DNA from: a virus
IMG/VR virus record: IMGVR_UViG_3300030450_001373
Coordinates: 1 to 34,996 of that record
Length of the DNA: 34,996 nucleotides
Direction: 5' to 3' (one strand)
The notes under the pieces were generated by a model. The model was given only the letters and a program-made list of their open reading frames with translations. It did not search any database and was not told the origin of the DNA. Positions 3,997-34,944 of this stretch are shown here, in pieces. The translations under genes and the position numbers were made by a program. Position 1 is the first letter of the stretch; every line of letters starts with the position of its first letter.

Positions 3997-4032
3997 AATT
4001 CCTTTACCTAATTTAAATCACAGGTTTATAAT
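3997..4032 (+). promoter_or_regulatory. 36-nt repeated promoter, copy 1
   Basis: The 36-nt block has a TATAAT -10 at 4027-4032 and a TTTACC -35-like element 18 nt before it. It matches the blocks at 19256-19291 and 26108-26143 at almost every position, with an invariant core ATTTAAATCACAGG followed by TTTA. All three copies stand in front of an accessory cassette and are followed by a GAAAGG ribosome site. Shared use by one sigma factor or one phage regulator is inferred. Confidence 0.85.
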
Positions 4033-4065
4033 GTATATATAAGAAAGAAAAGAGAAAGGCAAAAA

Positions 4066-4293
4066 ATGAAATTCAAAGGAACTTTAGAAAGAAAGAACAA
4101 AGATGTTGAAGTTTTTGAGTTTGAAGAAATATCAAGAGCTAAAGCAACAGGAAAAATGAGATTATTGATAAGAGATAATCAAGAAGTTGGAGTTGTTGCT
4201 AGATTGTTTGAAATTCATAGATCAGATGCTGACTTTATCGCAAGATGGGATATAGATAGCAATCAGATTGTTTGTGAATCTTTTAAGATATAG
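4066..4293 (+). CDS. Accessory (moron-type) protein of unknown function
   Basis: 75 residues, rich in charged residues, with no signal peptide or membrane segment. It begins M-K-F-K-G-T-L-E-R and contains the strand-like stretches K-M-R-L-L-I-R-D and Q-E-V-G-V-V-A-R-L-F; a small beta-rich fold is likely. I do not recognise the family. It is the first gene of a two-gene cassette with its own promoter (3997-4032) and terminator (4815-4846), inserted between two neck genes. A GAAAGG ribosome site precedes the ATG. Its role is probably host takeover or defence-related rather than structural, by context only. Confidence 0.75.
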   Translation: MKFKGTLERKNKDVEVFEFEEISRAKATGKMRLLIRDNQEVGVVARLFEIHRSDADFIARWDIDSNQIVCESFKI

Positions 4294-7251: not shown

Positions 7252-9629
7252 TGGCTATGGGCGATATAGTTCTAAGAATCGTAACTAAGGGTGCGGATCT
7301 TGCAAAAAAGCAATTAGATGGTGTTGGTGGATCTGGAAATAAAAGTGCTAAAGGATTAGCTAAGTTAAGTAAATTCGCAAAAATGGCTGGAGTTGCTGTT
7401 GCTGTTGTTCTTGCTAAAGGTCTGAAAGAGGCTGTTGAGGCTTTTGTAGAGTTTGATGACAAGATGGTGCAATCTCTTGCAATCATGGACACAACTGTCA
7501 AGCAACAAAAGATGATGGAAGATCAAGCTATGGCTGTTTCAAGAACAACCAGAATTGGTGCTAGTCAATCTGCTGAGGCATATTTCTTTTTAGCATCTGC
7601 TGGATTAGATGCTGAACAATCGGTCGCCGCTTTACCACAGGTTGCAAAATTCGCGCAAGCAGGAATGTTTGATATGGCTACTGCAACAGATCTCGCAACA
7701 GATGCCCAAAGTGCTTTGGGATTAACTGTTGATAATGCAAGTGATAACTTAAATAATTTAACAAGAGTTACTGATGTTCTTGTAAAAGGAAACCAATTAG
7801 CAAACGCATCAGTTCAGCAATTCTCTGAGGCTCTTACAACAAAAGCTGGTGCGGCCTTGAAAGTTGTGAATAAAGATGTTGAAGAGGGTGTCGCTGTTCT
7901 CGCCGCTTTTGCAGATAGAGGTGTTAAAGGTGCAGAGGCAGGAGATAAATTAAACCAAGTTCTTAGAGATATACCAAGAGCTACTGCTAAGAATGGAGAA
8001 GAGTTTGCGAAATTAGGTCTTAACATGTTTGATACTGAAGGCAATATGAAGAATGTTGCTGATATTGTTGAAGAGCTAGATAGTGTTCTCGGCCCAATGT
8101 CTGATGAATTAAAAGCATCTACATTAGATCAATTAGGTTTGAATCGTGGTGTTGCTGATGCTGTGAAGATCTTATCTGGAGCTGGAGATCAGATTAGAGA
8201 ATATGAAAAACAATTAAGAGGTGCTGGTGGGGCTACTGATGAAGTAGCAAATAATCAAATGAAAAGCTTGAAAGCACAAACTGATCTAATGAGAAATTCT
8301 TTTGATGAATTAGGAATCTTATTAGGAGATACTATTGCACCAGCTTTATTGTCAATCGTAGGATTTATAACAAAGATAATTACCAAGACTTCTGATTTCA
8401 TAAAAGAACAGAAAGAGCAAAAAGATGTAGTAGTAGATTCTACAAGAGAGTTAGTTATCATGGGTCAAGAAATAGAAAAGCTTGACCATAGTTATAATGC
8501 TTACTCACAAGGAATATTTGAAGCTACTACAAATGTTATTGATAGTAGATCAGCAACAGAAAAAGCTATTGATGCTCAAAAAGGATTAGAGCGTGCTAAT
8601 AGAACAGTTGCACCTAGCTATGCAAATGTAACTGATGAGGCTATTGCATTAGCCCAAGCTAATAGAGAAACAAAAGTATCTACTGAAGAATTAAGTGAAG
8701 AAGAAGAAAAGTTAGCACAACAAAGAGAATCAGAGGGATTACCTGCTTTAAATAAAGTATTAAGTGCATATAGAAAGATTCAAGATATTCAAGAAAATAT
8801 TGCTGATCTTGAAAAAGAAGAAAGAAAAGCTCTTGAAAAATTAAATAAAGAAAAGGCATTATTAACAGATGCTAATGAAGATGTAATTAAAGCAGAAGAA
8901 GAATTACAAAGACAAAAAGATCTTTCAAAGATCGTTACCTTAGAAGAAGAACTTGCAATTATAAAAGCAAATGAAGCATTAGCAGAGGCACAAGAGGAAT
9001 TAGATGGATCAAGATTAGCTCAAATAGAATATGAATTAGCTGTTCAAAAAGTTGAAGAGGCAATCAAGAAATCAACAAGTGCTACAAATGAAGAAATAAG
9101 TGCATTAAAAGATAAAGAAAGAGCCGAAGATGAAGTTGTAAAACAAACAGAATCATTAAAGAAAGCCCAATTAGATTATCAAGATGCACAGGAAGAGTTA
9201 GCGAAAGCAACTGAAAAATCAACAGAAAATCTTATGGAAATGGCTATTGCTAAAATGGAGTTAGATCAAGCAATAGCAGATGTTGAGAGTCTAGGTGCTT
9301 TTGAAATAGCTCTAGCTCAAATGGTCGCTAATGCTGGTGGAGATTTGGAAACTTTAAGAAAATCATTTCAAGCTATTTTTAATATGACAGGGAAGTCTGT
9401 TGATTTAGGATCTGGAGTTGATCTAAGTACAGGAGATGGATCTGTAAAATTTGAAGAAACAGGAGATCCAGAAGTAGAGGCTCAAAGAGAGGCTAGTGGT
9501 AAAGATGGTGCTAAAACATTTATATTAAATACAAGAGTGGAAAGTGGCTTTTTAACAGAAGTTGCTGTTAGCGAGGCAGTTTTCACAGCAGTAGAGAAAG
9601 CAAAACAACTTGGTTTAGAGTTTCAATAA
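7251..9629 (+). CDS. Tail tape measure protein
   Basis: 792 residues. Residues 1-45 contain a hydrophobic stretch (M-A-G-V-A-V-A-V-V-L-A-K-G) followed by a TP901-type tape measure core: A-V-E-A-F-V-E-F-D-D-K-M, S-R-T-T-R-I-G-A-S-Q-S-A-E-A and the repeated A-T-D-L-A-T-D-A motif. A second hydrophobic patch lies at about 355-375 (D-T-I-A-P-A-L-L-S-I-V-G-F), and 500-690 is a long Glu/Lys coiled coil. At about 1.5 angstrom per residue it predicts a tail near 120 nm. The first Met (7251) overlaps the chaperone stop; ATG 7257 is an alternative. Confidence 0.95.
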   Translation: MAMGDIVLRIVTKGADLAKKQLDGVGGSGNKSAKGLAKLSKFAKMAGVAVAVVLAKGLKEAVEAFVEFDDKMVQSLAIMDTTVKQQKMMEDQAMAVSRTTRIGASQSAEAYFFLASAGLDAEQSVAALPQVAKFAQAGMFDMATATDLATDAQSALGLTVDNASDNLNNLTRVTDVLVKGNQLANASVQQFSEALTTKAGAALKVVNKDVEEGVAVLAAFADRGVKGAEAGDKLNQVLRDIPRATAKNGEEFAKLGLNMFDTEGNMKNVADIVEELDSVLGPMSDELKASTLDQLGLNRGVADAVKILSGAGDQIREYEKQLRGAGGATDEVANNQMKSLKAQTDLMRNSFDELGILLGDTIAPALLSIVGFITKIITKTSDFIKEQKEQKDVVVDSTRELVIMGQEIEKLDHSYNAYSQGIFEATTNVIDSRSATEKAIDAQKGLERANRTVAPSYANVTDEAIALAQANRETKVSTEELSEEEEKLAQQRESEGLPALNKVLSAYRKIQDIQENIADLEKEERKALEKLNKEKALLTDANEDVIKAEEELQRQKDLSKIVTLEEELAIIKANEALAEAQEELDGSRLAQIEYELAVQKVEEAIKKSTSATNEEISALKDKERAEDEVVKQTESLKKAQLDYQDAQEELAKATEKSTENLMEMAIAKMELDQAIADVESLGAFEIALAQMVANAGGDLETLRKSFQAIFNMTGKSVDLGSGVDLSTGDGSVKFEETGDPEVEAQREASGKDGAKTFILNTRVESGFLTEVAVSEAVFTAVEKAKQLGLEFQ

Positions 9630-10891
9630 TGTCTGTTGCGTTTGATAGTAATGTAAATTTAACAGTACAGGTTGGGTTTGATAGTGAGCCATTTGATTCT
9701 TCACAATCATTTACTGATATTTCTGCTTATGTAAGAGGGATAAATATATCAAGAGGAAGAAATAATGAGATCGGTCAATTCCCTGCTGGATCTTGTGAGT
9801 TGTTATTAAGTAATGCAGATAATAGATTCAATCCAACTCAAACTACTCATTATTACGATAGTGCTAATTCAAGAACTAAAATTCAACCATTAAAAACTGT
9901 AAAGATAACTGCTACTTATGATTCTTCTGATTATGTGATCTTCTATGGATTCTTAGATCAGATTCCTGTTAGCTATCCTGCTTTAGGGGCTGATAGTGTT
10001 GTTCGGTTTGTTGCGATTGATGCCTTTAAGATCTTTAATGCTCAAACTATACAATCTGTAGGTTGGAAGATTGGTCAAGTTGGGTTTTCTGAAATAGGAT
10101 CTTCTACTAGATTAGGTTATGCTGATGCTGTTGAATTAACTTCTGTAAGGATCGGAAGATTATTAGATTCAATAGGATTCCCAAGTGCTTTAAGAACAAT
10201 AAATACAGGAACAATGAATATTCAGCAAGAAAGTTTAACAACTAATCTTTTAAATGCTATGAAAGAATGTGAAACAGCAGAAAATGCGCAATTCTTTATT
10301 GCATCAGATGGTAAAGCTACTTTTAGAAATAGAGATTATAAATTATCAAATACTAAAGCTATCAATGTTCAAGCTACTTTTGATAATTCTGGATCTAATT
10401 TACCTTTTACCAATGTAGTAACAGGGTTTGATACTAATGAAGTTATAAATGTTTATGAATGGACAAGATCTGGAGGATCTGCTCAATATGTGGCTGATGC
10501 TGATAGTGTTCAAAGATATACTGCTAAAACATCAACTAAAACAACAAAGAATACTTCTGATGCTAATGTTTCATCTATTATTAATCAGAAAATCGCGGAA
10601 ACTGCTTTACCTATTGAAAGAATAGAAAGATTAGAGATCAATCCAAGACAAGATGTTGATCTGTGGCCTAAAGTTCTTGGATTAGAGTTCGGAGATCGTG
10701 TAAAGGTTAATATAACTAATCCAGATGGATCTACTTTTTCTGATGAAGTATGGATTGAAAGCATTAGCCATTCAATAGTGTCTGGATCTCAAAATTGGGC
10801 TTATAAGATCTCTTTAAGTCCAGCAGGATCTTCTGGTTGGGTATTAGGACAAGCAAAAATTGGAGAGGGTACTCGTTTCGCTTATACTTAG
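9629..10891 (+). CDS. Minor tail / baseplate hub-type protein
   Basis: 420 residues. The N-terminal F-T-D-I-S-A-Y-V-R-G-I-N-I-S-R-G-R, then A-G-S-C-E-L-L-L-S-N-A-D-N-R-F-N-P and F-Y-G-F-L-D-Q-I-P, is a signature I know from minor tail proteins that follow the tape measure in actinophages and some other Gram-positive phages. The middle and C-terminus are beta-rich, and L-G-L-E-F-G-D-R-V-K-V near 350 is typical of hub-like domains. It probably forms the tail tip to which fibres attach. The start overlaps the tape measure stop by one base. Confidence 0.85.
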   Translation: MSVAFDSNVNLTVQVGFDSEPFDSSQSFTDISAYVRGINISRGRNNEIGQFPAGSCELLLSNADNRFNPTQTTHYYDSANSRTKIQPLKTVKITATYDSSDYVIFYGFLDQIPVSYPALGADSVVRFVAIDAFKIFNAQTIQSVGWKIGQVGFSEIGSSTRLGYADAVELTSVRIGRLLDSIGFPSALRTINTGTMNIQQESLTTNLLNAMKECETAENAQFFIASDGKATFRNRDYKLSNTKAINVQATFDNSGSNLPFTNVVTGFDTNEVINVYEWTRSGGSAQYVADADSVQRYTAKTSTKTTKNTSDANVSSIINQKIAETALPIERIERLEINPRQDVDLWPKVLGLEFGDRVKVNITNPDGSTFSDEVWIESISHSIVSGSQNWAYKISLSPAGSSGWVLGQAKIGEGTRFAYT

Positions 10892-11419: not shown

Positions 11420-11746
11420 ATGGCAGATACATTACATTCGGTACAAGGAGTACTTGGTACAGGTAGCACAGCTATTTTAGATGCAGTTGCATCAAGCACA
11501 ACTGAAACAGTTATTGGATTAACTTTATCTAATATAAGTGGATCTAGTGCTGATGTAACAGTTGATCTAAGTATTACAAAAAGTGGTGGATCATTAAGAA
11601 AAGTTTTAAATGATGTTTCACTGCCTTTTGGAACTACTATAACAATGAGTACAAAAATGGTATTGGAAACAGGTGACACAATGCAAGGACTTGCAAGTGC
11701 GGCCTCAAGTGTTGATTTTAATTTAGCTTATTTGAAACAAACCTAA
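11420..11746 (+). CDS. Small Ig-like virion protein
   Basis: 108 residues. The pattern S-S-A-D-V-T-V-D-L-S-I-T-K-S-G-G then L-N-D-V-S-L-P-F-G-T-T-I, L-E-T-G-D-T-M-Q-G-L-A-S-A-A-S-S-V-D is one I recall from small beta-sandwich structural proteins of marine phages encoded near fibre genes. It is probably a decoration or fibre-linking subunit. A good ribosome site (AGAGGAAAG) precedes the ATG. GATC is still common here; the depletion begins with the next gene. Confidence 0.7.
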   Translation: MADTLHSVQGVLGTGSTAILDAVASSTTETVIGLTLSNISGSSADVTVDLSITKSGGSLRKVLNDVSLPFGTTITMSTKMVLETGDTMQGLASAASSVDFNLAYLKQT

Positions 11747-11757
11747 AGGGGTAATTT

Positions 11758-12354
11758 ATGTCCTATATAGGTACACAACCAAATAATGTAAAAAAGAATA
11801 TTGGTATATATACACCAAATGATATTACTGCTTTAACCAAAGATGGTCATTGGGGTGGCTCAATAGAACATATTGAAACTGAAACTTTTAGTGGCGTTTC
11901 GACTGTTGACTTTGATGATTTAGGAAATTATGAAACACATCTTTTTGTTATGAATAATATTCATTTAGATGACAACAGAGACCAAAACCTTTATGCAAAA
12001 ACAGGTGGCTCAACAGATACAGGCAGTCATTATGCGAGAGCTTTTGTAGTTGGTGGAAGTGCAGATACCGAAGATAGAGATAATTCTTTAAACAGATTTA
12101 GATTATGGGCTCAAACAGGTAATGCAACAGGAGAAGCATTTTGTGGCTATTTATATATGTATAACGCTTTAGATAGTGCCAAATATACTTTATTTAACCA
12201 ATTCGGTAGTCAAACAATTTATAATGGCGTTCAAGAAATCAGTTTTGGTGGTGGTGCATATAAACAAAATAACACACTATCTGGAATACAGTTTTGGCCT
12301 AGTTCATCAACAATGGCAGGAAGTATTGAGCTGTATGGATTGAAAGAAGTTTAA
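11758..12354 (+). CDS. Fibre-array protein 1 (A type, with anchor motif)
   Basis: 198 residues. The N-terminus Y-I-G-T-Q-P-N-N-V-K-K-N-I-G-I-Y-T-P-N-D-I is an anchor motif that recurs in the fourth gene (G-I-F-T-P-N-D-I). It is followed by a beta-rich body with A-L-D-S-A-K-Y-T-L-F at about 140 and an end G-S-I-E-L-Y-G-L-K shared by the whole array. Tail-fibre or receptor-binding role is inferred from position between the tail tip and lysis genes and from similar marine phage proteins ending in Y-G-I/L-K. It contains no GATC, unlike most of the genome. Confidence 0.75.
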   Translation: MSYIGTQPNNVKKNIGIYTPNDITALTKDGHWGGSIEHIETETFSGVSTVDFDDLGNYETHLFVMNNIHLDDNRDQNLYAKTGGSTDTGSHYARAFVVGGSADTEDRDNSLNRFRLWAQTGNATGEAFCGYLYMYNALDSAKYTLFNQFGSQTIYNGVQEISFGGGAYKQNNTLSGIQFWPSSSTMAGSIELYGLKEV

Positions 12355-12355
12355 T

Positions 12356-12868
12356 ATGAGTAACCTAAGATTAATTAATGAAACTACTGCTAGTTCAAGT
12401 GCAAGTGTTTCAGTTGAAGATGTTTTCACAACTGATTTTAATGTTTATAAAATAGTTACTAATCAAAGAGGAATTTCTAGCGATACTTCAATAGAGGGTA
12501 GGTTTATAGATTCAAGTGGAACTATTGTTAGTTCTAGCAATTATGATTATGCAAGAATTATGATCAAAGCTTGGACAGGTTTTGGGGAAGATAGGAATAC
12601 AGGTCAAACTCGTTTTAGAAGTTTTGGCGAGGCATCTGCTGAAGGTGCATCATCAGTATCTTATGTTTTTAATCCAATGAATGAAACCGACTATACATAT
12701 TTTGTTAATTCTAATTCAGCAGTACAAAGTGGCGACAATAATTTTAATATGCAAGGAATTGCAGTTCTCAAACTTCAAGGTGCAATGTCAGGCATTAATT
12801 TCTTCCCTGATAATGGAAATGCTTTTACTTCTTTTAGTTGTAGAGTTTATGGATTGAGGGTGGACTAA
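12356..12868 (+). CDS. Fibre-array protein 2 (B type)
   Basis: 170 residues. It lacks the T-P-N-D-I anchor and begins L-R-L-I-N-E-T-T-A-S-S-S-A-S-V-S-V-E-D-V-F-T-T-D-F, equivalent to the region after the anchor in the A type. The middle P-M-N-E-T-D-Y-T-Y-F and end G-I-N-F-F-P-D-N-G-N, then C-R-V-Y-G-L-R match the family. It probably packs with or replaces the A-type subunit in a hetero-oligomeric fibre. One of only three GATC sites of the array is in this gene (12562). Confidence 0.72.
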   Translation: MSNLRLINETTASSSASVSVEDVFTTDFNVYKIVTNQRGISSDTSIEGRFIDSSGTIVSSSNYDYARIMIKAWTGFGEDRNTGQTRFRSFGEASAEGASSVSYVFNPMNETDYTYFVNSNSAVQSGDNNFNMQGIAVLKLQGAMSGINFFPDNGNAFTSFSCRVYGLRVD

Positions 12869-13389
12869 TGGGATTAATGCAAGTAGCAACGCATACAGTA
12901 GAAAGTGGAAGTGAAGTACAAACAGTTAAATTAGAAAGTTGTGTAACAGACAATAGTATGTATTTTCTTAGTGCTAATAATATTTGTGTAGGTGCTGATG
13001 GTGGAAGTCTTGATGTAAAGCCATTAGTTGGTAGCACATCAGATGATACTTCAAACATTAATATTGCTTGGATGGATTTAAAAACTTCTGGTGCTTATCA
13101 AGATTTTGGAAATACAGGACAAGATATGTGGCGAGTAACTGATGGATGTACAACAGCACCAAATAAAATTAACTTTGTTATGAATTTATTTAATTGGTAC
13201 AGCAGTTCGGAATGGGCTCATATCACAATGGAAGTAACTTCAATGACAAGTTCCCAATTAAGAGGTTATCAACAAGCAGGAACTAAAGAGGAAACAACTT
13301 CTTTTAATGGAATACAGTTTTACACTAATCAAACAGGTGGTGGTGGCTTTCAAGCAGGAAGTCAATTCACTTTATATAAGGTGGTGTAA
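12868..13389 (+). CDS. Fibre-array protein 3 (divergent member)
   Basis: 173 residues, the most divergent member. It shares I-T-M-E-V-T-S-M-T-S-S-Q-L-R-G-Y-like central strands and the F-N-G-I-Q-F-Y-T and F-T-L-Y-K-V end, with the last block lacking the canonical Y-G-L. The body has C-V-T-D-N-S-M-Y-F-L and W-M-D-L-K-T-S-G-A-Y-Q-D-F-G. A single-base overlap joins it to the gene before. It is probably a head or tip domain of the fibre complex; this is inferred from synteny. Confidence 0.68.
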   Translation: MGLMQVATHTVESGSEVQTVKLESCVTDNSMYFLSANNICVGADGGSLDVKPLVGSTSDDTSNINIAWMDLKTSGAYQDFGNTGQDMWRVTDGCTTAPNKINFVMNLFNWYSSSEWAHITMEVTSMTSSQLRGYQQAGTKEETTSFNGIQFYTNQTGGGGFQAGSQFTLYKVV

Positions 13390-13391
13390 TT

Positions 13392-14030
13392 ATGAGTGAA
13401 TATGGATATATACCAGAAAGCCCTGCTCAAAGTTTTGGAAATAATAAAGGAATATTTACACCTAATGATATTTATGATCTAACAAGAGATGATAAGTTTA
13501 AAAACTTAGGGCAACTTGAATTGATTGAAACTAAAACAGGAAGTGGTGTAAGTGCAATAGATTTTACAGACATAAAAAGTAGCACTTATGATGTTCATTT
13601 TATGACAGTAACAGGTTTCGTTCCAACACAAGATGGGCAACCTTTTGGTATTAGATTATCTAATGATGGAAGTACTTTTATTTCTAGTGGATATAATTGG
13701 GCAAACTTAACTTATAGAGGTGGTGGAACATTTGCTGACAATAGGTCAACTTCATCTTCATATTTAGAAATTGGTAGGTTATGTGGTAACTCAACTAATG
13801 AAAAACTTAGTGCATATATTTATTTTTATCATCTTGGCGATAGTGCTAAGTACAGTTTTTTAACGCAACAAGCTACTTACTATAATGAATTTGGAGAGCA
13901 AATGGGCTCATTTGGAAGTTGTGCTTATCCAACATTAAGTCAAGTAAATGGAATAAGACTTTGTACTACTTCAAATAATATAACTGTTACTGCTGTAACT
14001 CTTTATGGGATTAAGATGTATAAATCATGA
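13392..14030 (+). CDS. Fibre-array protein 4 (A type, with anchor motif)
   Basis: 212 residues. G-I-F-T-P-N-D-I-Y-D-L-T-R-D-D corresponds to the anchor of fibre protein 1, followed by L-E-L-I-E-T-K-T-G-S-G-V-S-A-I-D-F, which matches its I-E-T-E-T-F-S-G-V-S-T-V-D-F. The D-S-A-K-Y-S-F block (about 155) and the final T-L-Y-G-I-K are present. This second A-type gene begins what looks like a repeat of the A-B-type block, so the array may have grown by block duplication. A ribosome site is weak; spacing is 2 nt from the upstream stop. Confidence 0.74.
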   Translation: MSEYGYIPESPAQSFGNNKGIFTPNDIYDLTRDDKFKNLGQLELIETKTGSGVSAIDFTDIKSSTYDVHFMTVTGFVPTQDGQPFGIRLSNDGSTFISSGYNWANLTYRGGGTFADNRSTSSSYLEIGRLCGNSTNEKLSAYIYFYHLGDSAKYSFLTQQATYYNEFGEQMGSFGSCAYPTLSQVNGIRLCTTSNNITVTAVTLYGIKMYKS

Positions 14031-14557
14031 GTACTAATTTACAATTTATAACACAAGTTAGTGCAGAAAGTGTTGTGTATTTAAACACAGGACAAATCTT
14101 TACTGCTGAATATGATAGTTATTTTGTTCAAATGGAAATTGCAGGAAGTTCAACTTATAACGAAATTTATTTAACAGATAGCAGTAATGCAAGATTAAAT
14201 GATAGTTCAGATGACGCACACTACGACAATGCTATGAGGGTTTTAAAATCAGACACAAGTGCAGCTTCAAATAATGGAGAAAATGCTTATGTAGGTTGGA
14301 GAGAGATTGGTGTATATATAAATAATCAGAATAAAGGTTATGGAATGAGCTTTTATGTTCACAATCCTTTTGATAGTTCTAAATATACATTTATAATTTC
14401 TCAATCAGTTGGATATGTTGGTACTGCTATGTGGGCAGGTAAAGCTATTGGCTCATATAAAAGTGCAGAGCAATGTAATGGATTATATTTATCTAATAGT
14501 GGTGGTGGAACAATGGATTATATTAAAGCAAATATTTATGGGATAGTGAAAGTATGA
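14027..14557 (+). CDS. Fibre-array protein 5 (B type)
   Basis: 176 residues. L-Q-F-I-T-Q-V-S-A-E-S-V-V-Y-L-N-T-G-Q-I-F opens like fibre protein 2, followed by the P-F-D-S-S-K-Y-T-F-I-I-S block and the end A-N-I-Y-G-I-V-K. No T-P-N-D-I anchor. ATGA overlap with the preceding gene implies coupled translation and fixed stoichiometry. No GATC occurs in it. Confidence 0.72.
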   Translation: MSTNLQFITQVSAESVVYLNTGQIFTAEYDSYFVQMEIAGSSTYNEIYLTDSSNARLNDSSDDAHYDNAMRVLKSDTSAASNNGENAYVGWREIGVYINNQNKGYGMSFYVHNPFDSSKYTFIISQSVGYVGTAMWAGKAIGSYKSAEQCNGLYLSNSGGGTMDYIKANIYGIVKV

Positions 14558-15084
14558 GTGGAGATTTAGTTTTAATAGATAGTGTTACTTTAACAGGTGC
14601 CGTTGCAAGTGTTGATTTGGGTGGTGCAGATTGGGATGACAGTTATGATGTGTACCAAGTTGTTTGCAGTGATATAGAATTTGATACAGACACAAGAGCA
14701 ATAAGTTTTAGACATATAGATACTTCAAATAATCCAATTACAGTTTCAAGTTATGATGTATCTTTTGAAGTTTTAAAAGCTAATACAGGATTTGAAAATG
14801 CTTATGGAAGTTCAACACACGCATATGTAACTGATTTATATATAGGCAATGGAACAGGAGAATGTGCAAACACTGTTATATGGTTATTTAATTCAAATAT
14901 TGCAGGAGATTATACTTTTCATACAGTAGAAAGTGTTTACTTATCTAATGATCCATATACAAAAGGTCAGCAAGGTGGTGGTGTTTTGAAACAGACTTCC
15001 GCAACAAAAGGTATTCATATCTTCTGTACTGCTAGTGGAAATTTTGACGCAGGCGAATTTAGACTGTACGGACTTAGAAAATAA
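14554..15084 (+). CDS. Fibre-array protein 6 (B type)
   Basis: 176 residues. L-V-L-I-D-S-V-T-L-T-G-A-V-A-S-V-D-L-G opens the same module; G-D-Y-T-F-H-T-V-E-S matches the S-x-Y-T-F block, and the end E-F-R-L-Y-G-L-R-K is the most canonical of all six. It overlaps the previous stop as ATGA and is the last array gene. Immediately after its stop comes the second TGCTAAGAT promoter. It carries one GATC (14949). Confidence 0.74.
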   Translation: MSGDLVLIDSVTLTGAVASVDLGGADWDDSYDVYQVVCSDIEFDTDTRAISFRHIDTSNNPITVSSYDVSFEVLKANTGFENAYGSSTHAYVTDLYIGNGTGECANTVIWLFNSNIAGDYTFHTVESVYLSNDPYTKGQQGGGVLKQTSATKGIHIFCTASGNFDAGEFRLYGLRK

Positions 15085-15085
15085 G

Positions 15086-15094
15086 TGCTAAGAT
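15086..15094 (+). promoter_or_regulatory. Extended -10 box TGCTAAGAT, copy 2
   Basis: Same ten bases GTGCTAAGAT as at 10891-10900, again directly after a structural gene stop and before a strongly SD-led gene (AAAGGAG at 15099). It would start transcription of the lysis region independently of the fibre genes. Confidence 0.5.
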
Positions 15095-15112: not shown

Positions 15113-15433
15113 ATGGCTATAAAAACTATTGCACAATTTAGAACTGAAGCTACTTCTGAAATAGAAAGTGAAAAACCTTTATATGCACAAGTAAAAAATG
15201 AGAGAAGAGAGTTTACTAAGGCAGAATATGACCTAGCTATTGAAGATAGAGCACAGTATAAATTAGACCAACAAGATAATGGATATGTTAGAGATAGACA
15301 AGAAAGTTATCCTGCTTTAGGCGAACAACTTGATCTGTTGTATCACGATATGACAGCAGGTAAAGGCGATAAAACAGGCGAATGGTACAAAGCTGTTAAA
15401 AAAGTTAAAGATGACAATCCGAAACCAAGCTAA
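15113..15433 (+). CDS. Small tail-region protein with Y-P-x-L-G-E-Q-L-D motif
   Basis: 106 residues. The motif R-Q-E-S-Y-P-A-L-G-E-Q-L-D-L-L-Y-H-D matches a widespread phage family (usually Y-P-S-I-G-D-Q-L-D-x-L) encoded after tail fibres, sometimes called a tail fibre assembly or host-specificity accessory protein; the function is not settled. The rest is charged and helical. A perfect ribosome site (AAAGGAG) precedes the ATG. Its stop overlaps the next ATG. Confidence 0.75.
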   Translation: MAIKTIAQFRTEATSEIESEKPLYAQVKNERREFTKAEYDLAIEDRAQYKLDQQDNGYVRDRQESYPALGEQLDLLYHDMTAGKGDKTGEWYKAVKKVKDDNPKPS

Positions 15434-16017
15434 TGAAACTTGATGTAGTAAGAACACAATTCGGAATAGATGCAACCAATGGAATGCTTTTTATTGATGG
15501 AGTGTTTGAATGTTATACATTAGAAGATGAAGTTAGAGATGTAAAAGTTCATTCAGAAACTGCGATTCCTTTAGGGGAATATGAGATCAAGTTAAGAACA
15601 GAAGGCGGATTCCATAGTAAATACACTAAGCGATATGGATCAATGCATAAGGGTATGCTTTGGCTACAAGATGTTCCTAACTTTCAATGGATCTTAGTGC
15701 ATACGGGCAATCAAGATTCTCACACTGCTGGTTGTTTGCTTTTGGGAGAAACTCAACAAGATCTGGATAAAGGAAAAGATGGTTTTATTGGTGGATCTGG
15801 AGATGCTTATAAAAAGGCTTACCCAAAGATCGCTGATGCAATTCTTTCTGGAGATAAAGTAACTATTAGATATTCAGATATAGATCTAGGATCTAAAGAG
15901 TTATCAAATAAATCAAGTGATGATGTTATGCTAACAAGCATGGTAGATGCGAAAATGGATAAAATGCTTAAGGAAATTAAGAATATAAAATCTATTATTA
16001 GCAAGAAAATCGTTTAA
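15433..16017 (+). CDS. DUF5675-family protein, putative cell-wall enzyme of the lysis region
   Basis: 194 residues. Residues 1-150 match the DUF5675 pattern: R-T-Q-F-G-I-D-A-T-N-G-M-L-F-I-D-G, Y-T-L-E-D, I-P-L-G-E-Y-E-I-K-L-R and the H-T-G-N-Q-D-S-H-T-A-G-C-L-L-L-G block with His90, His97 and Cys101. That arrangement recalls the catalytic H-x-C motif of YkuD-like L,D-transpeptidases, so action on peptidoglycan cross-links is plausible but unproven. Residues 155-194 are a charged helical tail. Proximity to holin-like genes fits a lysis role. No signal peptide. Confidence 0.75.
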   Translation: MKLDVVRTQFGIDATNGMLFIDGVFECYTLEDEVRDVKVHSETAIPLGEYEIKLRTEGGFHSKYTKRYGSMHKGMLWLQDVPNFQWILVHTGNQDSHTAGCLLLGETQQDLDKGKDGFIGGSGDAYKKAYPKIADAILSGDKVTIRYSDIDLGSKELSNKSSDDVMLTSMVDAKMDKMLKEIKNIKSIISKKIV

Positions 16018-16655: not shown

Positions 16656-18722
16656 ATGTTGTACCGATTCAACAAAATTGTCCGAATATTAATAGTATTA
16701 TTTTTAATAATTCCACCAATATCAGTTCAAGCCGAAGAAACAACAGTAACAGAGAATTTCAATGAGGGGGAAATCAATGAAGATATTACTTTCGTTTATG
16801 GTGGTAGTGATACTGCTGTTGTTGCCGAAACTGATTGTTCTACTGCTCAAATACCCGGATCAATCAATATTGAGGATATGGATTGTCATGGATCAGAATA
16901 TTTTGGATCAGATCGTTACCAATTGGGATTACGCAGTTCAACAGATTCATTTACTATTGCATTCCCTAATTCAGAAACTAAACCAATTACTGAAGTTGGA
17001 TTTCTAACTTTAGCTGTTGATGATGCTAATACAGGAACTGTTTATTATGATGATTCAACTTCTGCAACCTTTAATATAGTTGCAAATGCTAGTGGTAATT
17101 CGCAAGTAACTTTAATTGCACCTAGTGGAACTACGATCAATGAAATTGTGATAGCAGGTGCATCAGATAATCTACAAGATTGGTGGTTGTTTGATAATGT
17201 ATATTATAAATATAATGCTGTTCCTGTAACTACAACCACAACATCTAGTACCACTACTACGACAACTACTACATCTAGTACTACAACAACAACGACTACA
17301 ACTTTACCACCAGAGCCAGAAGAAGAATATATACCACCAGAAACAACAACTACAACTATTCCTGTTGTGATCGTTGAGATAGGTGGAGAAGAAGTAGAAT
17401 ACACACAAACAGAAGTAATTGATGGAACAGTTGAAAGAGATCAAGAAAGATTAGATAATTTAGAAGAATATGGGTGCGAATTAACAAATGCACAAATAGA
17501 AAGAGGAGATTGTGATGTTGAGATCTATGAAGAAGATCTATATGAAGAAGAATTTGATGAAGAAGAACAGGGAGTTCTTGATGACAGCATTATCATATTT
17601 GAAATTCCAGATGAAGATGAGCTTGAAGAATTGGAATTTGAGGATCTTAATGAAGAAGAAATTGAAGATCTGGAAAAACAAATGGAGATTGATGCTAAGG
17701 AAATTGAAATCCTTAATGAAGAAATTGAGTTTATTGAAGAATTATCAGAGGAAGAATTAGAAGAGTTTGTTGAAGTAGTCTTAGAAATTGAAGAATACAT
17801 AGATGATCTTGAAGATTTTGAGGAAATAGAAATTATAATTGAAGAGGAAATAGATTTAATAGATATATTTATAGCTAACGATTTATTCCCACCAGATCCA
17901 GAAGATATAGAAAAAGATTTAGAAAAGATACAAGAGGAGATCATAGAAGATGAAGTTGAAATTGAAGAAATATTTGTTGAAGATGAAGTTGAGATTTATG
18001 AAGATGAAGAACAAGTTGAAGAAACTATATTTGAAATATTTGATATTTTTGATTCGCAAGGATCTATTGAAGAGGAATTATCTGAGGAGATAATAGAAGA
18101 AGAAGTTGCAGAATTAGAAGAAGTTATTGAAGAGATCATTGAAATTCCTATTGTTGAGGAAGATCTATCAGAAGAAGAAGTTAAAGAAGTAATACAAGAA
18201 TATGTTGAGGATCTGGAAACCGAAGAAGTAATAGAAGTCTTAGAAGAAGTTAATGACATTGGAGTTCAAAATCTATCCGAAACCACAGAGGAAACACAGG
18301 AGATCATACAGGAAGTAGTAGAAGAGGCTATTGAAGAAATAGATGAATTAACAGAAGAACAAGTTGAAGTAGTTGCAGAAGTTTTACAAATAGAAACAGA
18401 AGATGTTGAGATTATCGCTGATGCTATAAAATCTGATGAAGTAGTTGCTGAGGCAGTTGAAGAGTATGTTGAAAGAGCTGTTGAAAATAAAGATGTAGAA
18501 AATTACACTCTCGCTGATGTTGTTACAGAAGTACAATACGAAGAATTTTTAGAGAATCCAATAGAAGTGTTTGTTGATTTTGATAATTTAAATGAGATCA
18601 CAATTTCAAATGTAGGAGATGACATGACATCAGATCAGCGTGAAAAAGCTCAAGAAGTTGTAGTGCCTGTTATTTTGACTAGAATAGCATCTATGGCTGC
18701 TTTTATGTTTAGGAGAGGTTAG
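16656..18722 (+). CDS. Large secreted, hyper-acidic surface protein with Thr-rich linker
   Basis: 688 residues. A signal peptide (1-27, R-I-L-I-V-L-F-L-I-I-P-P then V-Q-A-E-E) is followed by a beta-rich domain (about 28-188) ending D-W-W-L-F-D-N-V-Y-Y-K-Y, which resembles jelly-roll or carbohydrate-binding folds. Residues about 189-240 form a T/S linker, and about 270-640 are extremely rich in Glu/Ile/Val, probably long coiled helices. The C-terminus V-P-V-I-L-T-R-I-A-S-M-A-A-F-M-F-R-R-G looks like an anchor. Such architecture is seen in actinobacterial surface proteins. In a phage it may coat the infected cell, block superinfection or act in lysis; I cannot choose. It lies inside the holin region. 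Confidence 0.8.
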   Translation: MLYRFNKIVRILIVLFLIIPPISVQAEETTVTENFNEGEINEDITFVYGGSDTAVVAETDCSTAQIPGSINIEDMDCHGSEYFGSDRYQLGLRSSTDSFTIAFPNSETKPITEVGFLTLAVDDANTGTVYYDDSTSATFNIVANASGNSQVTLIAPSGTTINEIVIAGASDNLQDWWLFDNVYYKYNAVPVTTTTTSSTTTTTTTTSSTTTTTTTTLPPEPEEEYIPPETTTTTIPVVIVEIGGEEVEYTQTEVIDGTVERDQERLDNLEEYGCELTNAQIERGDCDVEIYEEDLYEEEFDEEEQGVLDDSIIIFEIPDEDELEELEFEDLNEEEIEDLEKQMEIDAKEIEILNEEIEFIEELSEEELEEFVEVVLEIEEYIDDLEDFEEIEIIIEEEIDLIDIFIANDLFPPDPEDIEKDLEKIQEEIIEDEVEIEEIFVEDEVEIYEDEEQVEETIFEIFDIFDSQGSIEEELSEEIIEEEVAELEEVIEEIIEIPIVEEDLSEEEVKEVIQEYVEDLETEEVIEVLEEVNDIGVQNLSETTEETQEIIQEVVEEAIEEIDELTEEQVEVVAEVLQIETEDVEIIADAIKSDEVVAEAVEEYVERAVENKDVENYTLADVVTEVQYEEFLENPIEVFVDFDNLNEITISNVGDDMTSDQREKAQEVVVPVILTRIASMAAFMFRRG
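17229..17303 (+). repeat. ACN-type Thr linker repeat with 30-bp period
   Basis: Codons ACA/ACT/ACC/ACG repeat through this segment, and the 11 bases ACATCTAGTAC occur at 17241-17251 and again at 17271-17281, exactly 30 bp apart. It encodes the T/S linker of the secreted protein. Slippage or unequal exchange here would change linker length between variants. Confidence 0.85.
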
Positions 18723-19255: not shown

Positions 19256-19291
19256 AATTCCTATACATTATTTAAATCACAGGTTTATAAT
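19256..19291 (+). promoter_or_regulatory. 36-nt repeated promoter, copy 2
   Basis: TATAAT at 19286-19291 with TATACA 18 nt upstream; shares almost all of its 36 positions with the copies at 3997 and 26108. The leader after it (ATTATTAAAAGAAAGGCAAA then ATG) is the same as that of copy 3, so both the promoter and the 23-nt leader are conserved. Confidence 0.87.
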
Positions 19292-19314
19292 GAATTATTA
19301 AAAGAAAGGCAAAA

Positions 19315-19458
19315 ATGAATAACAAAGAAATAACAATAAGATTGAAGAGCTGGGGTTATGAAGATAAAACTTCAACTTTTAAATCACAAGAAGAATTTGA
19401 TAATTTCATGGAACATTGTGAGAATATAGGTGTTTCAAGAGATATAGAAGTAGTCTAA
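19315..19458 (+). CDS. 47-residue accessory protein of unknown function
   Basis: M-N-N-K-E-I-T-I-R-L-K-S-W-G-Y-E-D-K, then F-K-S-Q-E-E-F-D-N-F-M-E-H-C and ending D-I-E-V-V. One beta strand plus one helix is likely. First gene of accessory cassette 2, preceded by the conserved promoter, the conserved leader and a GAAAGG ribosome site. Cassette 1 and cassette 3 start in the same way with unrelated proteins. Confidence 0.78.
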   Translation: MNNKEITIRLKSWGYEDKTSTFKSQEEFDNFMEHCENIGVSRDIEVV

Positions 19459-19858: not shown

Positions 19859-21061
19859 ATGCCTAAGAAAAAAATCGGCACAAAAAAAGATCTACCTCAT
19901 AATGAGGAGTTAGGAAATAATTATTATCCAAGCGGGTGGAAACCTCGTAGATCTTGGGATAATGAATCTAATTCTGGAGAAGTTACTCATATACAAAGCG
20001 GATCTGATGATTTTAAATTCAATAGCTTATTAAATGAATGGGGATTTGATAGTGATCATTTTTTTATTGTTGAAGATTCAATTAAGTTTTCTACATGGCA
20101 AACGCAATTAAAGGGAGGTAAAGTTGAAGATCTTTATGCCTTTAAAGCGACAATTAAAAGAAAAAGTCCTAAACATGATCAATTCTTTAAAGAATTACAA
20201 GATCAAGTTAAGAAAAAAAAGCCTATTAAAGTAAGCCAAAAAAAAGGTAATCTTGCTTATTTCTATATTTGTGCTGATTGGCAGTTTGGAAAAGCTGAAT
20301 TTAATACTGAATGGGGAGTTGATGAAACAGTTGATTATATAAAAGAATCAGTTATTAAAGCTAAAAAAAATATTAAAGATCTAAATAAGATCGGAGAAGT
20401 TGTAGATGAGATATACATAATGGGAATTGGGGATCTGATTGAGGGTGTTTGTCATTTCTATGAACATCAGCCATTCAATATAGAATTAACTAGATCAGAA
20501 CAAGAACATATAGCAAGATTGATGGTTTTAGAGATCTTAGATGGTTTATTACCATTAGCACCAAAGATAGTAATCGGAGGAGTAATTGGTAACCATTCAG
20601 AGTATAGATCAAGCAAAGGACAAGTTAGCACAACAAGATTAGATGGATCAGATTCAACAATATTTCAAATAGTAGGAGAGATTATTGATGGAAGAGAGCG
20701 TTATAAACATGTAAAAGTAATAATTCCAGATGAGTTTTATTTAACTATTGAAGTTAAAAATAAGAGGATCACTTTTTATCATGGCCACCAAACAGGTGGA
20801 GGAGGAAATGCTGAAACTAAATTAATTAATTGGTGGAAAAATCAAGCTATGGCTAGATTACCAGCAGGAACATCTGATCTTTTAATAACAGGGCATTATC
20901 ATCATTTAAGAGTTTTAACTGAAAGAGGAAGATCGTGGATTCAGAGTCCAAGTCTGGATACTTCTTATGAGCTTGAAAGTCGTATGGGATTAACTACTTC
21001 TCATGGTGTTTTAACCTTTACTTTATCGGAAGATGGTTGGGATAATTTAAAGATCTTATAA
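19859..21061 (+). CDS. Calcineurin-like metallophosphatase / nuclease
   Basis: 400 residues. Metal-binding motifs occur in order: C-A-D-W-Q-F-G-K (Asp140, with Gln in place of the usual His), G-D-L-I-E-G (191-196), G-N-H-S-E (244-248), Y-H-G-H (307-310) and G-H-Y-H-H (345-349). This is the metallophosphoesterase superfamily, which includes SbcD / Mre11-like nucleases; actinophages carry similar proteins of uncertain role. The first 130 residues are basic and may bind DNA. It begins an operon with an ATG directly at a predicted transcription start. Confidence 0.88.
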   Translation: MPKKKIGTKKDLPHNEELGNNYYPSGWKPRRSWDNESNSGEVTHIQSGSDDFKFNSLLNEWGFDSDHFFIVEDSIKFSTWQTQLKGGKVEDLYAFKATIKRKSPKHDQFFKELQDQVKKKKPIKVSQKKGNLAYFYICADWQFGKAEFNTEWGVDETVDYIKESVIKAKKNIKDLNKIGEVVDEIYIMGIGDLIEGVCHFYEHQPFNIELTRSEQEHIARLMVLEILDGLLPLAPKIVIGGVIGNHSEYRSSKGQVSTTRLDGSDSTIFQIVGEIIDGRERYKHVKVIIPDEFYLTIEVKNKRITFYHGHQTGGGGNAETKLINWWKNQAMARLPAGTSDLLITGHYHHLRVLTERGRSWIQSPSLDTSYELESRMGLTTSHGVLTFTLSEDGWDNLKIL

Positions 21062-21664: not shown

Positions 21665-22366
21665 ATGGGAATATTCAAAGAAGAAGAAAAAATAGAAGAT
21701 CATGATATAAAATACATAAAAATTGATGAAGTAACAAAGGAAGAATTAAATCCTAAAGATCATGACATAGAAGAGATCATTAAATCAATTCATAGATTCG
21801 GTTTTATAGAGCCATTAATAGTAAATGAAACAACAGGGAAGTTAGTGTCTGGACATGGTCGTTTAGAATCTATAAAAACAATTAAAGATAGAGGATATGA
21901 AACACCAGATGGAATAAGAGAAGAAAATGGAGAATGGCTTATTCCTGTTGTATCAAATATAAAATTTAAGAATGATGCAGAGGCTAGAGCTTATTTAATT
22001 GCAACAAATAGATTGGTTGAATTGGGTGGTTGGAACAATGATAAGTTGTCGGAAATGTTATCTGAATTAAAAGAAAGTAGCAATCTATTATTAGAGGGTG
22101 TTGGTTTTACTGAATTAGAAATGGATAAATTAAAAAATAAAAATGAAGTAGTAGAGCCAGAAGTTGATTTTGTTACAGAGCCATTAGAGGCTAATAATTA
22201 TGTGATGTTTTCTTTTAATAATGTTATGGATTGGGCAGTAGTGTCTGAACATTTGAATCTGGAAACTAAAGATGCCTTAGATTCAAAAGAGGGTTATAGA
22301 AGAAGAGGGCTTGGAAGAGTTGTAGATGGAAAAGTTTTATTAGAGATCTTAAATGAAAAAGACTAA
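21665..22366 (+). CDS. ParB-like domain protein
   Basis: 233 residues. The ParB / Srx N-terminal domain is seen at about 20-70 (H-D-I-E-E-I-I-K-S-I-H-R-F-G-F-I-E-P-L-I then K-L-V-S-G-H-G-R-L-E-S), followed by A-R-A-Y-L-I-A-T-N-R-L-V-E-L-G-G-W. The C-terminal part (N-Y-V-M-F-S-F-N-N-V-M-D-W, then G-Y-R-R-R-G-L-G-R-V) is shared by phage ParB-like proteins of actinophages. Such proteins bind or nick DNA, or use nucleotide binding, in phage and mobile elements. ATGA-type overlap with the glycosyltransferase gene (14 nt) indicates a functional pair. Confidence 0.85.
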   Translation: MGIFKEEEKIEDHDIKYIKIDEVTKEELNPKDHDIEEIIKSIHRFGFIEPLIVNETTGKLVSGHGRLESIKTIKDRGYETPDGIREENGEWLIPVVSNIKFKNDAEARAYLIATNRLVELGGWNNDKLSEMLSELKESSNLLLEGVGFTELEMDKLKNKNEVVEPEVDFVTEPLEANNYVMFSFNNVMDWAVVSEHLNLETKDALDSKEGYRRRGLGRVVDGKVLLEILNEKD

Positions 22367-23102
22367 ACAATTCATAATCAGCTTAAATAGAGCAGATAAT
22401 GTTATAACTGCTAAATGGAATAAACTTGCAACAATAGTAGTGAGAGAAGATCAAGAAAAAGAATATAAAAAACACAATGAGAATAAGATCTTAGCTATTC
22501 CAATGGAAGAAGATGGAAACTGTGCTAAAAAGAAAAATGCTGTATTAAACAGATTTGTTGATGAGAATGTTTTGATTTTAGATGATGATATAACTGCTGT
22601 TGGATACCATGAAAAAGGTAGAGTTAAAAAAGTAAGTGATCAATATTTACAGGAGTTTTGCGATAATATGTTTCAAATGACAAAAGATCTTAATACAGTT
22701 CTATGGGGTGTAAATATGCAGAGTGATAAAAAGTTTTATAGAGAATATTCGCCTTTTTCTTTTAATTCAGCAGTTCTTGGCCCATTTACTGCTATAAGAA
22801 ATGTTGATCGGAGTATTAGGTTTAATGAAAAGGATATATTTTTAAAAGAAGATTATGATCTATCTCTTCAAGTCTTAAACAAATACAGAAGATTGTTGAG
22901 AAATAATAAATGGTTTTATATATCAGAACATATTGAATTAGAGGGAGGATTGTCTGGTTTAAGATCTCAAAAAATAGAAATGGAACACAATATAAGATTA
23001 CAAAAGAAATGGGGATCTCGTATAGTGAAGATCAATAGAAAAACACAGAATCAAAATAAAACAATTAATCCGATTGTAAAAGTGCCTATTAAAGGAATTT
23101 AA
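22353..23102 (+). CDS. GT-A-like glycosyltransferase, resembling TET/JBP-associated (TAGT / GREB1-type) enzymes
   Basis: 249 residues. The pattern V-L-I-L-D-D-D-I (Asp77-79, metal/nucleotide-sugar site), preceded by N-C-A-K-K-K-N-A-V-L-N-R, then L-G-P-F-T-A-I-R-N and F-L-K-E-D-Y-D-L-S-L (165-172) is that of a GT-A-fold transferase. The closest family that I can recall is the phage TAGT group, proposed to glycosylate modified bases in DNA. No TET/JBP oxygenase, dNMP hydroxymethylase or other base-modifying partner is visible in this genome, so the substrate is open. It overlaps the ParB-like gene and leads into a nuclease gene. Confidence 0.75.
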   Translation: MKKTKQFIISLNRADNVITAKWNKLATIVVREDQEKEYKKHNENKILAIPMEEDGNCAKKKNAVLNRFVDENVLILDDDITAVGYHEKGRVKKVSDQYLQEFCDNMFQMTKDLNTVLWGVNMQSDKKFYREYSPFSFNSAVLGPFTAIRNVDRSIRFNEKDIFLKEDYDLSLQVLNKYRRLLRNNKWFYISEHIELEGGLSGLRSQKIEMEHNIRLQKKWGSRIVKINRKTQNQNKTINPIVKVPIKGI

Positions 23103-26107: not shown

Positions 26108-26143
26108 AATTCCTATACTTTATTTAAATCACAGGTTTAAAAT
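26108..26143 (+). promoter_or_regulatory. 36-nt repeated promoter, copy 3
   Basis: TAAAAT at 26138-26143 with TATACT upstream at an 18-nt spacing. It differs from copy 2 at only two positions in the 36-nt block; the 23-nt leader with GAAAGGCAAA then ATG is also nearly identical. It heads the long accessory operon 26167-29942. Confidence 0.87.
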
Positions 26144-26166
26144 AGATTATTAAAAGAAAGGCAAAA

Positions 26167-26496
26167 ATGAAAAATATAAAAGAAATAGATCTAACTAAAG
26201 GTCTTGAAGTAAAAGAATACGCAAAGGAATTAGCTAAGAAAGAATATGATTCTGAAGTAGTTAGTTTTGATAATTGGAATAAAGAAATTCGTGCAGATGT
26301 TACAGTCTGTTGCGGTGATGATATTGAAGATATTACTTATGATTTCTGCTTAGAAGATTCTGATAGTGGAGAAATTTATGATGTATATTGTGGAAGTAAG
26401 TGTTTCATAGTTCAGCATAATTTTGTAAATCGTTTTAATGATGATTGGAAAGAAATCACAAAAGAACAAATAGATCTTATAAGTGTGAATTGCTAA
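26167..26496 (+). CDS. Accessory operon protein of unknown function
   Basis: 109 residues, acidic: M-K-N-I-K-E-I-D-L-T-K-G-L-E-V-K-E-Y-A-K, then T-V-C-C-G-D-D-I-E-D-I and Y-C-G-S-K-C-F-I-V. Several Cys; no C-x2-C pairs in ribbon layout apart from the loosely spaced ones. First gene of cassette 3. GAAAGG ribosome site. I do not recognise a family. Confidence 0.75.
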   Translation: MKNIKEIDLTKGLEVKEYAKELAKKEYDSEVVSFDNWNKEIRADVTVCCGDDIEDITYDFCLEDSDSGEIYDVYCGSKCFIVQHNFVNRFNDDWKEITKEQIDLISVNC

Positions 26497-33943: not shown

Positions 33944-34944
33944 AATCATCTAGTGCAGAAGAGTTGATCAGTAGAAGAAACCAATTAAGAGAATTGGAAT
34001 GGGAGAAAAGGATCAATCGTTTTGAATCTAAACAAGCAAGAGATGATATATGGAATGCCTTTAATGATCTTCTGGGTAATTGGGATTACACATTAGCTAG
34101 GTTATATAATTATTTATTAACAAAACAAGTTAGATCAATAAATAAGATCATGAATGAAAATCCTCCAACAATATCTGGGATCTTAGCTATAACCAATTCA
34201 ACAATAGATAGAGAATCCAGAGTTGATTGGAGAAAAGAAGTTGAGCCATTTTATATGAGTATGATGGAAGATTTTGCTTATCTTCAAGTTGAAATATTAT
34301 TACCAGATGAATTAAAGGAGAATTATGTTTATTCACAAGAAGAACAAAATCAAATAGAAAGAAATAGAAGAAGAAAGCCAAGAAATGAGATCATAGAGAG
34401 TGGATTCCACCCACGAAGAAAAAGAGGTCAAGCTCTACCGATTAATACAAATAAATACAATAGATCTGCTAATGCTTATATGAAAGGAAGATTAGATCAA
34501 GTTTTACCAGATATGAGTAAAACAATGAAAAATAATTTAAACAGGGCTTTAAGGAAATCAATAGATGAGGCTAATGCTTTAGGTTTAACAGGAAGAAAAT
34601 TAGATAAATATTTAAGTGATGGGATCTCTAAAAGTTTAGGAAAGAAGAATCTGGGGAGAGCTATGAATATAGCTAGAACAGAGGGAACAGCTTTAGCTAA
34701 TTGGGGAATGAATGAAAGTGCAAAACAAACAGGATTGATATTAGAAAAAGAATGGATCACTCGTAGAGATGGAATAGTAAGGGAGGCTCATATCTATATG
34801 GATGGAGTTAGAGTAAACCAAAATGATGATTTCAATGTAAGAGGTTATTTAATGAATTATCCCGCAGATAGTAGCAAAGGAGCGCCTGCTGGACTAATAT
34901 GTAATTGTAGATGCGCAATGGTAATGCATGAAAAGAGGATATGA
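33940..34944 (+). CDS. Head morphogenesis protein, MuF / SPP1 gp7 family (complete copy)
   Basis: 334 residues from ATG 33940, which overlaps the portal stop as ATGA; an in-frame ATG at 33913 lies inside the portal gene. The N-terminal part (residues 1-170) is helical with I-N-R-F-E-S-K-Q-A-R-D-D-I-W; the conserved MuF region with A-R-T-E-G, E-K-E-W-I-T-R-R-D-G, R-E-A-H and the final I-C-N-C-R-C lies in the last 150 residues. Minor capsid protein associated with the portal; some MuF proteins carry C-terminal toxin domains but none is seen here. The 3' part differs from the left-end copy by about 8 %. Confidence 0.92.
   Translation: MKSSSAEELISRRNQLRELEWEKRINRFESKQARDDIWNAFNDLLGNWDYTLARLYNYLLTKQVRSINKIMNENPPTISGILAITNSTIDRESRVDWRKEVEPFYMSMMEDFAYLQVEILLPDELKENYVYSQEEQNQIERNRRRKPRNEIIESGFHPRRKRGQALPINTNKYNRSANAYMKGRLDQVLPDMSKTMKNNLNRALRKSIDEANALGLTGRKLDKYLSDGISKSLGKKNLGRAMNIARTEGTALANWGMNESAKQTGLILEKEWITRRDGIVREAHIYMDGVRVNQNDDFNVRGYLMNYPADSSKGAPAGLICNCRCAMVMHEKRI

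Follow-up and report, generated by a model that had tools for sequence, protein, structure and literature searches.

The virus record IMGVR_UViG_3300030450_001373 (34,996 bp, hereafter referred to as the window) contains a block of six head-to-tail genes, at 11758-15084, in which the tetramer GATC, abundant throughout the rest of the genome, is almost absent. Comparison of this block, or array, with its counterparts in related contigs leads to an explanation that we consider probable: fibre modules circulate among phages whose restriction regimes differ and show the union of these phages' site avoidances, and the six genes form an exchangeable receptor-binding array made of two triplets, each beginning with a gene whose N-terminus is conserved. 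Because its two ends (1-300 and 34481-34780) overlap with about 92% identity, the record probably represents a whole genome of about 34.5 kb, circularly permuted and varying between strains at the junction.

GATC occurs 293 times in the window. Only three of these sites fall within 11761-15090, at 12562, 13476 and 14950, which agrees with an earlier note on this DNA except that the last site had been placed at 14949; the counts sampled in that note from other regions (17 in 9629-10891 and 11 in 20341-21060) also match the exact ones. The edges of the hole are as sharp as had been claimed, with sites at 11541, 11564 and 11589 before the block and at 15332 and 15585 after it. The three longest GATC-free gaps of the window (1474, 973 and 914 bp) all lie within or border the block, and 3333-bp segments taken elsewhere contain a minimum of 24 sites each. 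The hole matches the six genes of the array, all on the plus strand: A1 (11758-12354, 198 aa), A2 (12356-12868, 170 aa), A3 (12868-13389, 173 aa), A4 (13392-14030, 212 aa), A5 (14027-14557, 176 aa) and A6 (14554-15084, 176 aa), A3 and A6 being the last genes of the first and second triplets.

The size of the deficit depends on the expectation that is chosen. From the density elsewhere, 31.5 sites would be expected in the array (Poisson P 1e-10). This figure becomes 24.8 when the array proteins are combined with the codon usage and the GATC preference of the core, i.e. the genes outside the array (P 5e-8), and 13.0 when the core preference is kept but the codons are those of the array (P 0.001). 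Without the preference, the array codons give 6.7 (shuffle P 0.05; Poisson P 0.10), the null model being the shuffling of synonymous codons within genes. Amino-acid and codon use accounts for the part from 31.5 to 13, roughly two thirds of the raw deficit; the array proteins have much Ser, Thr, Gly, Asn and Tyr and little Lys, Glu, Leu and Ile. The step from 13 to 6.7 is the loss of the core's GATC preference, and the residue from 6.7 to 3 is not significant in the window alone. Since the correction shrinks the expectation to 13 or 6.7, the array mostly lacks an excess: beyond composition, its shortfall consists mostly of this missing excess together with a mild depletion. The depletion had been said to be refutable if it vanished upon such a correction; much of the raw deficit does disappear and the rest stays. 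The depletion becomes decisive in pooled relatives, where the arrays of 27 GATC-rich contigs contain 45 GATC for 114 expected.

These relatives, about 150 distinct contigs, were retrieved by scans with a tail gene, an array gene and the major tail protein, and profile searches of related contigs yielded 444 array paralogues. Among 55 cluster representatives, 18 have no GATC at all in the core; the observed/expected ratio there is 0.27 in one other and ranges from 0.63 to 2.80 in the rest. Close relatives sit in opposite states: the major tail proteins of L093 and L094 are 92% identical to that of the window, yet these contigs have no GATC at all, and L096 to L098, at 86% identity for the same protein, display 2.2-2.6 times the expectation. 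Avoidance is therefore switched on or off by lineage. The conserved 108-aa protein gene that neighbours the array upstream, outside its boundary (11420-11746, plus strand), carries three GATC in the window; among its homologues, those of GATC-rich phages have 2.35 sites per copy, and all 18 copies from GATC-free phages are devoid of GATC. As a side observation, most of the most GATC-rich relatives (2.4-2.8 times; e.g. L038, L044, L161 and L167) lack any GANTC, and GANTC is normal in most GATC-free relatives.

GATC is not the only word concerned. In the core of the window, TCGA (0 observed for 47 expected), ACGT (0/23), GACG+CGTC (0/25) and GAACC+GGTTC (0/30) are missing, GGATG+CATCC (2/35) and GAAGC (4/46) are rare, and palindromic hexamers, for example TCTAGA, CTGCAG and CATATG, are almost lacking in the window too. 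The depletion exceeds the codon and amino-acid expectation and affects both strands, as in restriction-site avoidance, which is well documented in phages (Rusinov et al. 2018, PMC6286503). The array shares several of these core absences, among them ACGT (0/2.7), GGTGA+TCACC (0/4.9) and ACTGG+CCAGT (0/7.0).

All the arrays examined in the relatives are GATC-poor or GATC-free irrespective of the state of their core. After synonymous shuffling, the 27 contigs of the GATC-rich class give pooled core counts of 2023 for 1012 expected (2.00) against a ratio of 0.39 in their arrays, and the 27 contigs of the GATC-free class give 0 for 504 in the core and 1 for 97 (0.01) in the arrays. The corresponding GANTC ratios in the rich, intermediate and free classes are 0.09, 0.21 and 0.20 for the arrays and 0.50, 0.76 and 1.11 for the core. 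TCGA and ACGT are likewise low in arrays, whether or not their own core is low. More generally, the fraction of contigs banning a tetramer predicts its depletion in the arrays, relative to the core, of contigs that do not ban it (rho -0.66, P 3e-18, 134 tetramers). The same test gives a rho of -0.45 on 5-mers and, for tetramers on 50 lineage clusters, of -0.66, or -0.50 with CpG and G+C controlled. Words banned in none of the clusters have a median array/core ratio of 1.00, so that the null is calibrated. Eight core gene families submitted to the same test produced nothing comparable to the arrays (rho -0.15 to +0.12). They include the families of the genes flanking the array at 9629-10891 and 15433-16017, and the lack of an array-like signal there argues against an effect of position. 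The second of these regions (plus strand) encodes the DUF5675 protein directly after the array; it contains eight GATC, a core-like content, and its homologues are free of array-like avoidance. Among the gene families tested, union avoidance is confined to the arrays.

Array genes up to 97.5% identical, some of them near-identical over their full length, are common to GATC-free and GATC-rich phages with diverged cores. For instance, L052 (52 GATC) and L119 (zero) are 94.6% identical over 1027 bp covering array gene 3 and running into gene 4, a segment with no GATC in either contig. Two of their three matched core proteins are only 27-53% identical, the third, at 95%, being the conserved 108-aa neighbour. 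Further pairs sharing array genes are L052/L141, L052/L045, L051/L072 and L030/L033. These alignments show that array genes pass between phages free of GATC and phages rich in it.

Complete arrays display a regular layout of two triplets, found in L007, L033, L049, L167 and the window, where the first gene of each triplet has a conserved N-terminal stretch. In A1 this stretch spans about 40 residues, the rest of the protein being variable, and nucleotide homology to close relatives stops at about 11876-11913; A4 is the second gene of this anchor type. The conserved N-termini could plausibly serve as crossover points, and the gene order suggests, as a guess, two three-subunit fibres or mixed trimers. 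The predicted structure of A4 is a confident beta-sandwich preceded by a short helical N-terminus (predicted local distance difference test score 87.8). Among viral models, 110 match it at E <= 1e-3 and a few of these bear a tail-fibre annotation; a beta-rich C-terminal binding domain like that of fibre or receptor-binding tips is common to A4 and annotated phage fibre proteins. Against the PDB, the model resembles galectin-like, carbohydrate-binding folds with Z values of 7-8, a weaker resemblance, within the range of common arrangements. Because the A4 model resembles phage tail-fibre domains and these lectin-like shapes, the array proteins likely bind the host receptor.

The proposed mechanism can be briefly summarized as follows. 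The hosts of each lineage would impose their own restriction-modification (R-M) repertoire on it, and its core would lose just the sites concerned. An array moving between lineages would have to survive each repertoire in turn; copies with a banned site would be lost and the surviving modules would be cleared of the union of the sites. In a lineage that tolerates and accumulates GATC, such as that of the window, an incoming array would then appear as a GATC hole. Restriction enzymes would thus cause the avoidance of the words, and exchange the union pattern. Several points weigh against this explanation. The donor of the window's own array was not found, the best relative of A4 being 57% identical at the amino-acid level. 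The correlation with the fraction of banning contigs is weaker on non-CpG words alone (rho -0.38), and the related contigs are mostly fragments and kin to one another. Since arrays are short and fast-evolving, codon-pair or structural constraints outside the synonymous-shuffle model could explain some of their depletion. Finally, restriction is deduced from the absence of words.

Restriction-site avoidance described in prokaryotic viruses (PMC6286503) similarly depletes short, often palindromic words, GATC being among the avoided sites. Unlike there, the ban is here on or off between close relatives, and one block of genes follows the family-wide union instead of the rule of its own genome. 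The logic is the same as that of plasmids, where a broader host range goes with stronger avoidance of R-M targets (Shaw et al. 2023, PMC10359461), with the difference that whole plasmids or plasmid genes are concerned there and a module within a phage genome here. In the parts consulted of the report on HF1-group haloviruses (PMC7230728), GATC and CTAG are absent, many palindromes are avoided and a divergent region of tail-fibre genes correlates with the host; these parts mention neither a GATC-rich member nor module-level avoidance. Nothing similar to module-level union avoidance inside phage genomes was found in the open-licence papers searched. If the explanation is true, word avoidance tells which phage genes pass from one restriction regime to another: a travelling gene can be recognized by having fewer banned words than its own genome would demand. 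The pressure of R-M systems on gene exchange would then become measurable from metagenomes without hosts.

The GATC excess of the core, which had been noted as an unexplained puzzle, is real and is a larger effect than the hole. The genes outside the array contain 277 GATC versus 143 after synonymous shuffling (z ~18; the most enriched tetramer). The "several times" expectation of the earlier note holds at 3.1 times with a zero-order model, falling to 1.6 times with the maximal-order Markov model (both on the whole window) and 1.94 times with synonymous shuffling outside the array. None of the core genes departs significantly from this common excess, which is seen in all three reading frames. 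After GAT, 56 of 71 Leu codons are CTN (79%) versus 96 of 258 (37%) after other NNT codons; Ser is encoded by TCN in 92% of cases after NGA versus 62% after NAA; and Ile is encoded by ATC in 70 of 144 cases (49%) after NNG versus 34 of 267 (13%) after NNA. The excess is a preference at the DNA level. All NGATC and GATCN contexts are raised, CGATC and GATCC excepted (in the window core, GGATC 81 for 39 expected, GATCC 19 for 21). Site-specific conservation of GATC between relatives was looked for and not found, as sites turn over individually; density and not position is therefore at stake, and the differences in density between lineages arise from many independent substitutions. We take the excess to be a pressure that acts on density at the level of the lineage; its cause most likely belongs to the class of host-side or phage-side modifications that make GATC harmless or useful. 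A tentative, more specific version holds that GATC is positively selected for density in the GATC-rich lineages, modified GATC acting as a protective or self mark in their hosts, that sister lineages face GATC-cutting enzymes, that the phage family thereby switches between none and a surplus of one word, and that fibre modules passing through both states stay nearly clear of GATC. The excess is stronger in lineages avoiding GAACC (rho -0.63) and GANTC (rho -0.41), among about 38 words tested, a correlation that may only mark host groups.

A comparable, unexplained case is that of subcluster B3 mycobacteriophages, with a fourfold GATC excess (PMC4841201). Both are genome-wide excesses well above expectation and without counterpart in close relatives, the B3 phages being phages of actinobacteria, as those here may be. 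Here, unlike in B3, the excess follows lineage across dozens of clusters, with GATC-free relatives on the other side, persists after synonymous shuffling and is interrupted by a hole at the fibre array. If the present reading is true, such unexplained excesses, that of B3 included, gain a comparative system in which close relatives stand at zero versus 2-2.8 times the expectation.

An unlikely alternative to circulating modules is composition only: GATC would seldom fit the array proteins and nothing special would have happened. The correction described above, which lowers the expectation from 31.5 to 13 or, without GATC preference, to 6.7, speaks for it; the arrays of GATC-rich phages nevertheless reach only 0.39 of the synonymous expectation (0.09-0.21 for GANTC), those of GATC-free phages are near zero along with their core, and never-banned words stay at 1.00.

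The proposal of the earlier note, taken as one recent import from a phage with an unrelated host, is quite improbable. Besides the sharp boundary, L002 speaks for it: this contig matches the window at 99% identity for 8.3 kb and at 95% for 3.4 kb more, until the similarity is lost at 11894, within A1 and just past its conserved N-terminus, to return briefly near the start of A4 (81%). This match and the near-identical array genes found across diverged cores do give the block a different recent history. The one-off transfer itself is not supported as proposed: homologous arrays, laid out alike and equally poor in GATC, stand at this place in the relatives, and the exchanges seen are within the phage family. 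Since the arrays of the relatives are GATC-poor and several core absences are shared by that of the window, the block comes from a pool exchanged within the family and not from a foreign composition. Apart from the array, L002 does not align to a short block in the tape-measure gene (8318-8540).

It is also rather improbable that the surplus of GATC in the core results from the banning of dozens of other words. Synonymous swaps penalising the words depleted on both strands do lift GATC from 143 to 152-164, which covers only about 10-21 of the 134 surplus sites, and a lenient, partly circular word set still yields 196-209 against the 277 observed; the nearly general rise of the NGATC and GATCN contexts also contradicts compensation. 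GACGC is about doubled in many relatives, probably a side effect of this kind that compensates for the avoidance of its transition neighbour GATGC. A time lag, in which arrays turn over too fast for a slow gain of GATC and avoidance is unneeded, is hardly probable either: arrays are indeed far more variable than the core and densities do differ between lineages by numerous substitutions, but about 1.0 of the expectation is then predicted and not 0.39 for GATC or 0.09-0.21 for GANTC.

Genes that might modify GATC were looked for. No GATC adenine methyltransferase of the phage's own (PF02086, PF01555) and no 5-methylcytosine methyltransferase (PF00145), the maker of the substrate of TET-associated glycosyltransferase (TAGT), were matched in the window, and a Dam, N6/N4 or C5 enzyme of its own was rejected as the cause; the sole N6/N4 methyltransferase match lies in a GATC-free relative. 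The window does contain a TAGT gene (22353-23102, plus strand; PF20691, E 1.4e-12, over the cut-off), which may point to DNA hypermodification. It is adjoined by a gene for a ParB_N-like protein (21665-22366, plus strand), one of whose PHROG matches is annotated as DNA methyltransferase. No TET/JBP oxygenase was found among the open reading frames scanned, which comprised only part of the small ones. Besides the window, two relatives whose GATC excess is milder have TAGT. It was rejected as the driver of the excess, as the strongly GATC-rich, possibly incomplete records of about 30 kb G025, G028 and G030 lack it and distant TAGT phages are often GATC-poor.

The signs concerning the host are weak but convergent and suggest actinobacteria. 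Isolated phages gave no nucleotide match and no match to A4, only distant tail-protein and terminase matches. Relatives of the tail protein occur mostly in Arthrobacter phages, and also in a Prauserella genome and an actinobacterial metagenome-assembled genome; a prophage scan returned two distant actinobacterial matches and nothing else. WhiB genes are present in 5 of 30 relatives, the window itself being without a WhiB match. The size and base composition resemble those of the uvMED group G13 of marine phages (35.4 kb, low G+C; PMC3861242). That group was tentatively assigned to Ca. Actinomarina, leaning partly on a WhiB gene (PMC3861242). An actinobacterial host is hinted at because of the tail-protein relatives, the WhiB genes and this resemblance, and the phage family, known from environmental records, is probably marine.

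Two further features of the window were recorded. A Glu-rich, internally repetitive protein of 688 aa is encoded at 16656-18722; it matches nothing in PHROG, and its Pfam matches are all sub-threshold. A mostly intergenic 74-nt element (AATTCCTATAC...TTTAAATCACAGGTTTA) occurs in three copies, at 3997-4070, 19256-19329 and 26108-26181, and is possibly a shared promoter or operator.

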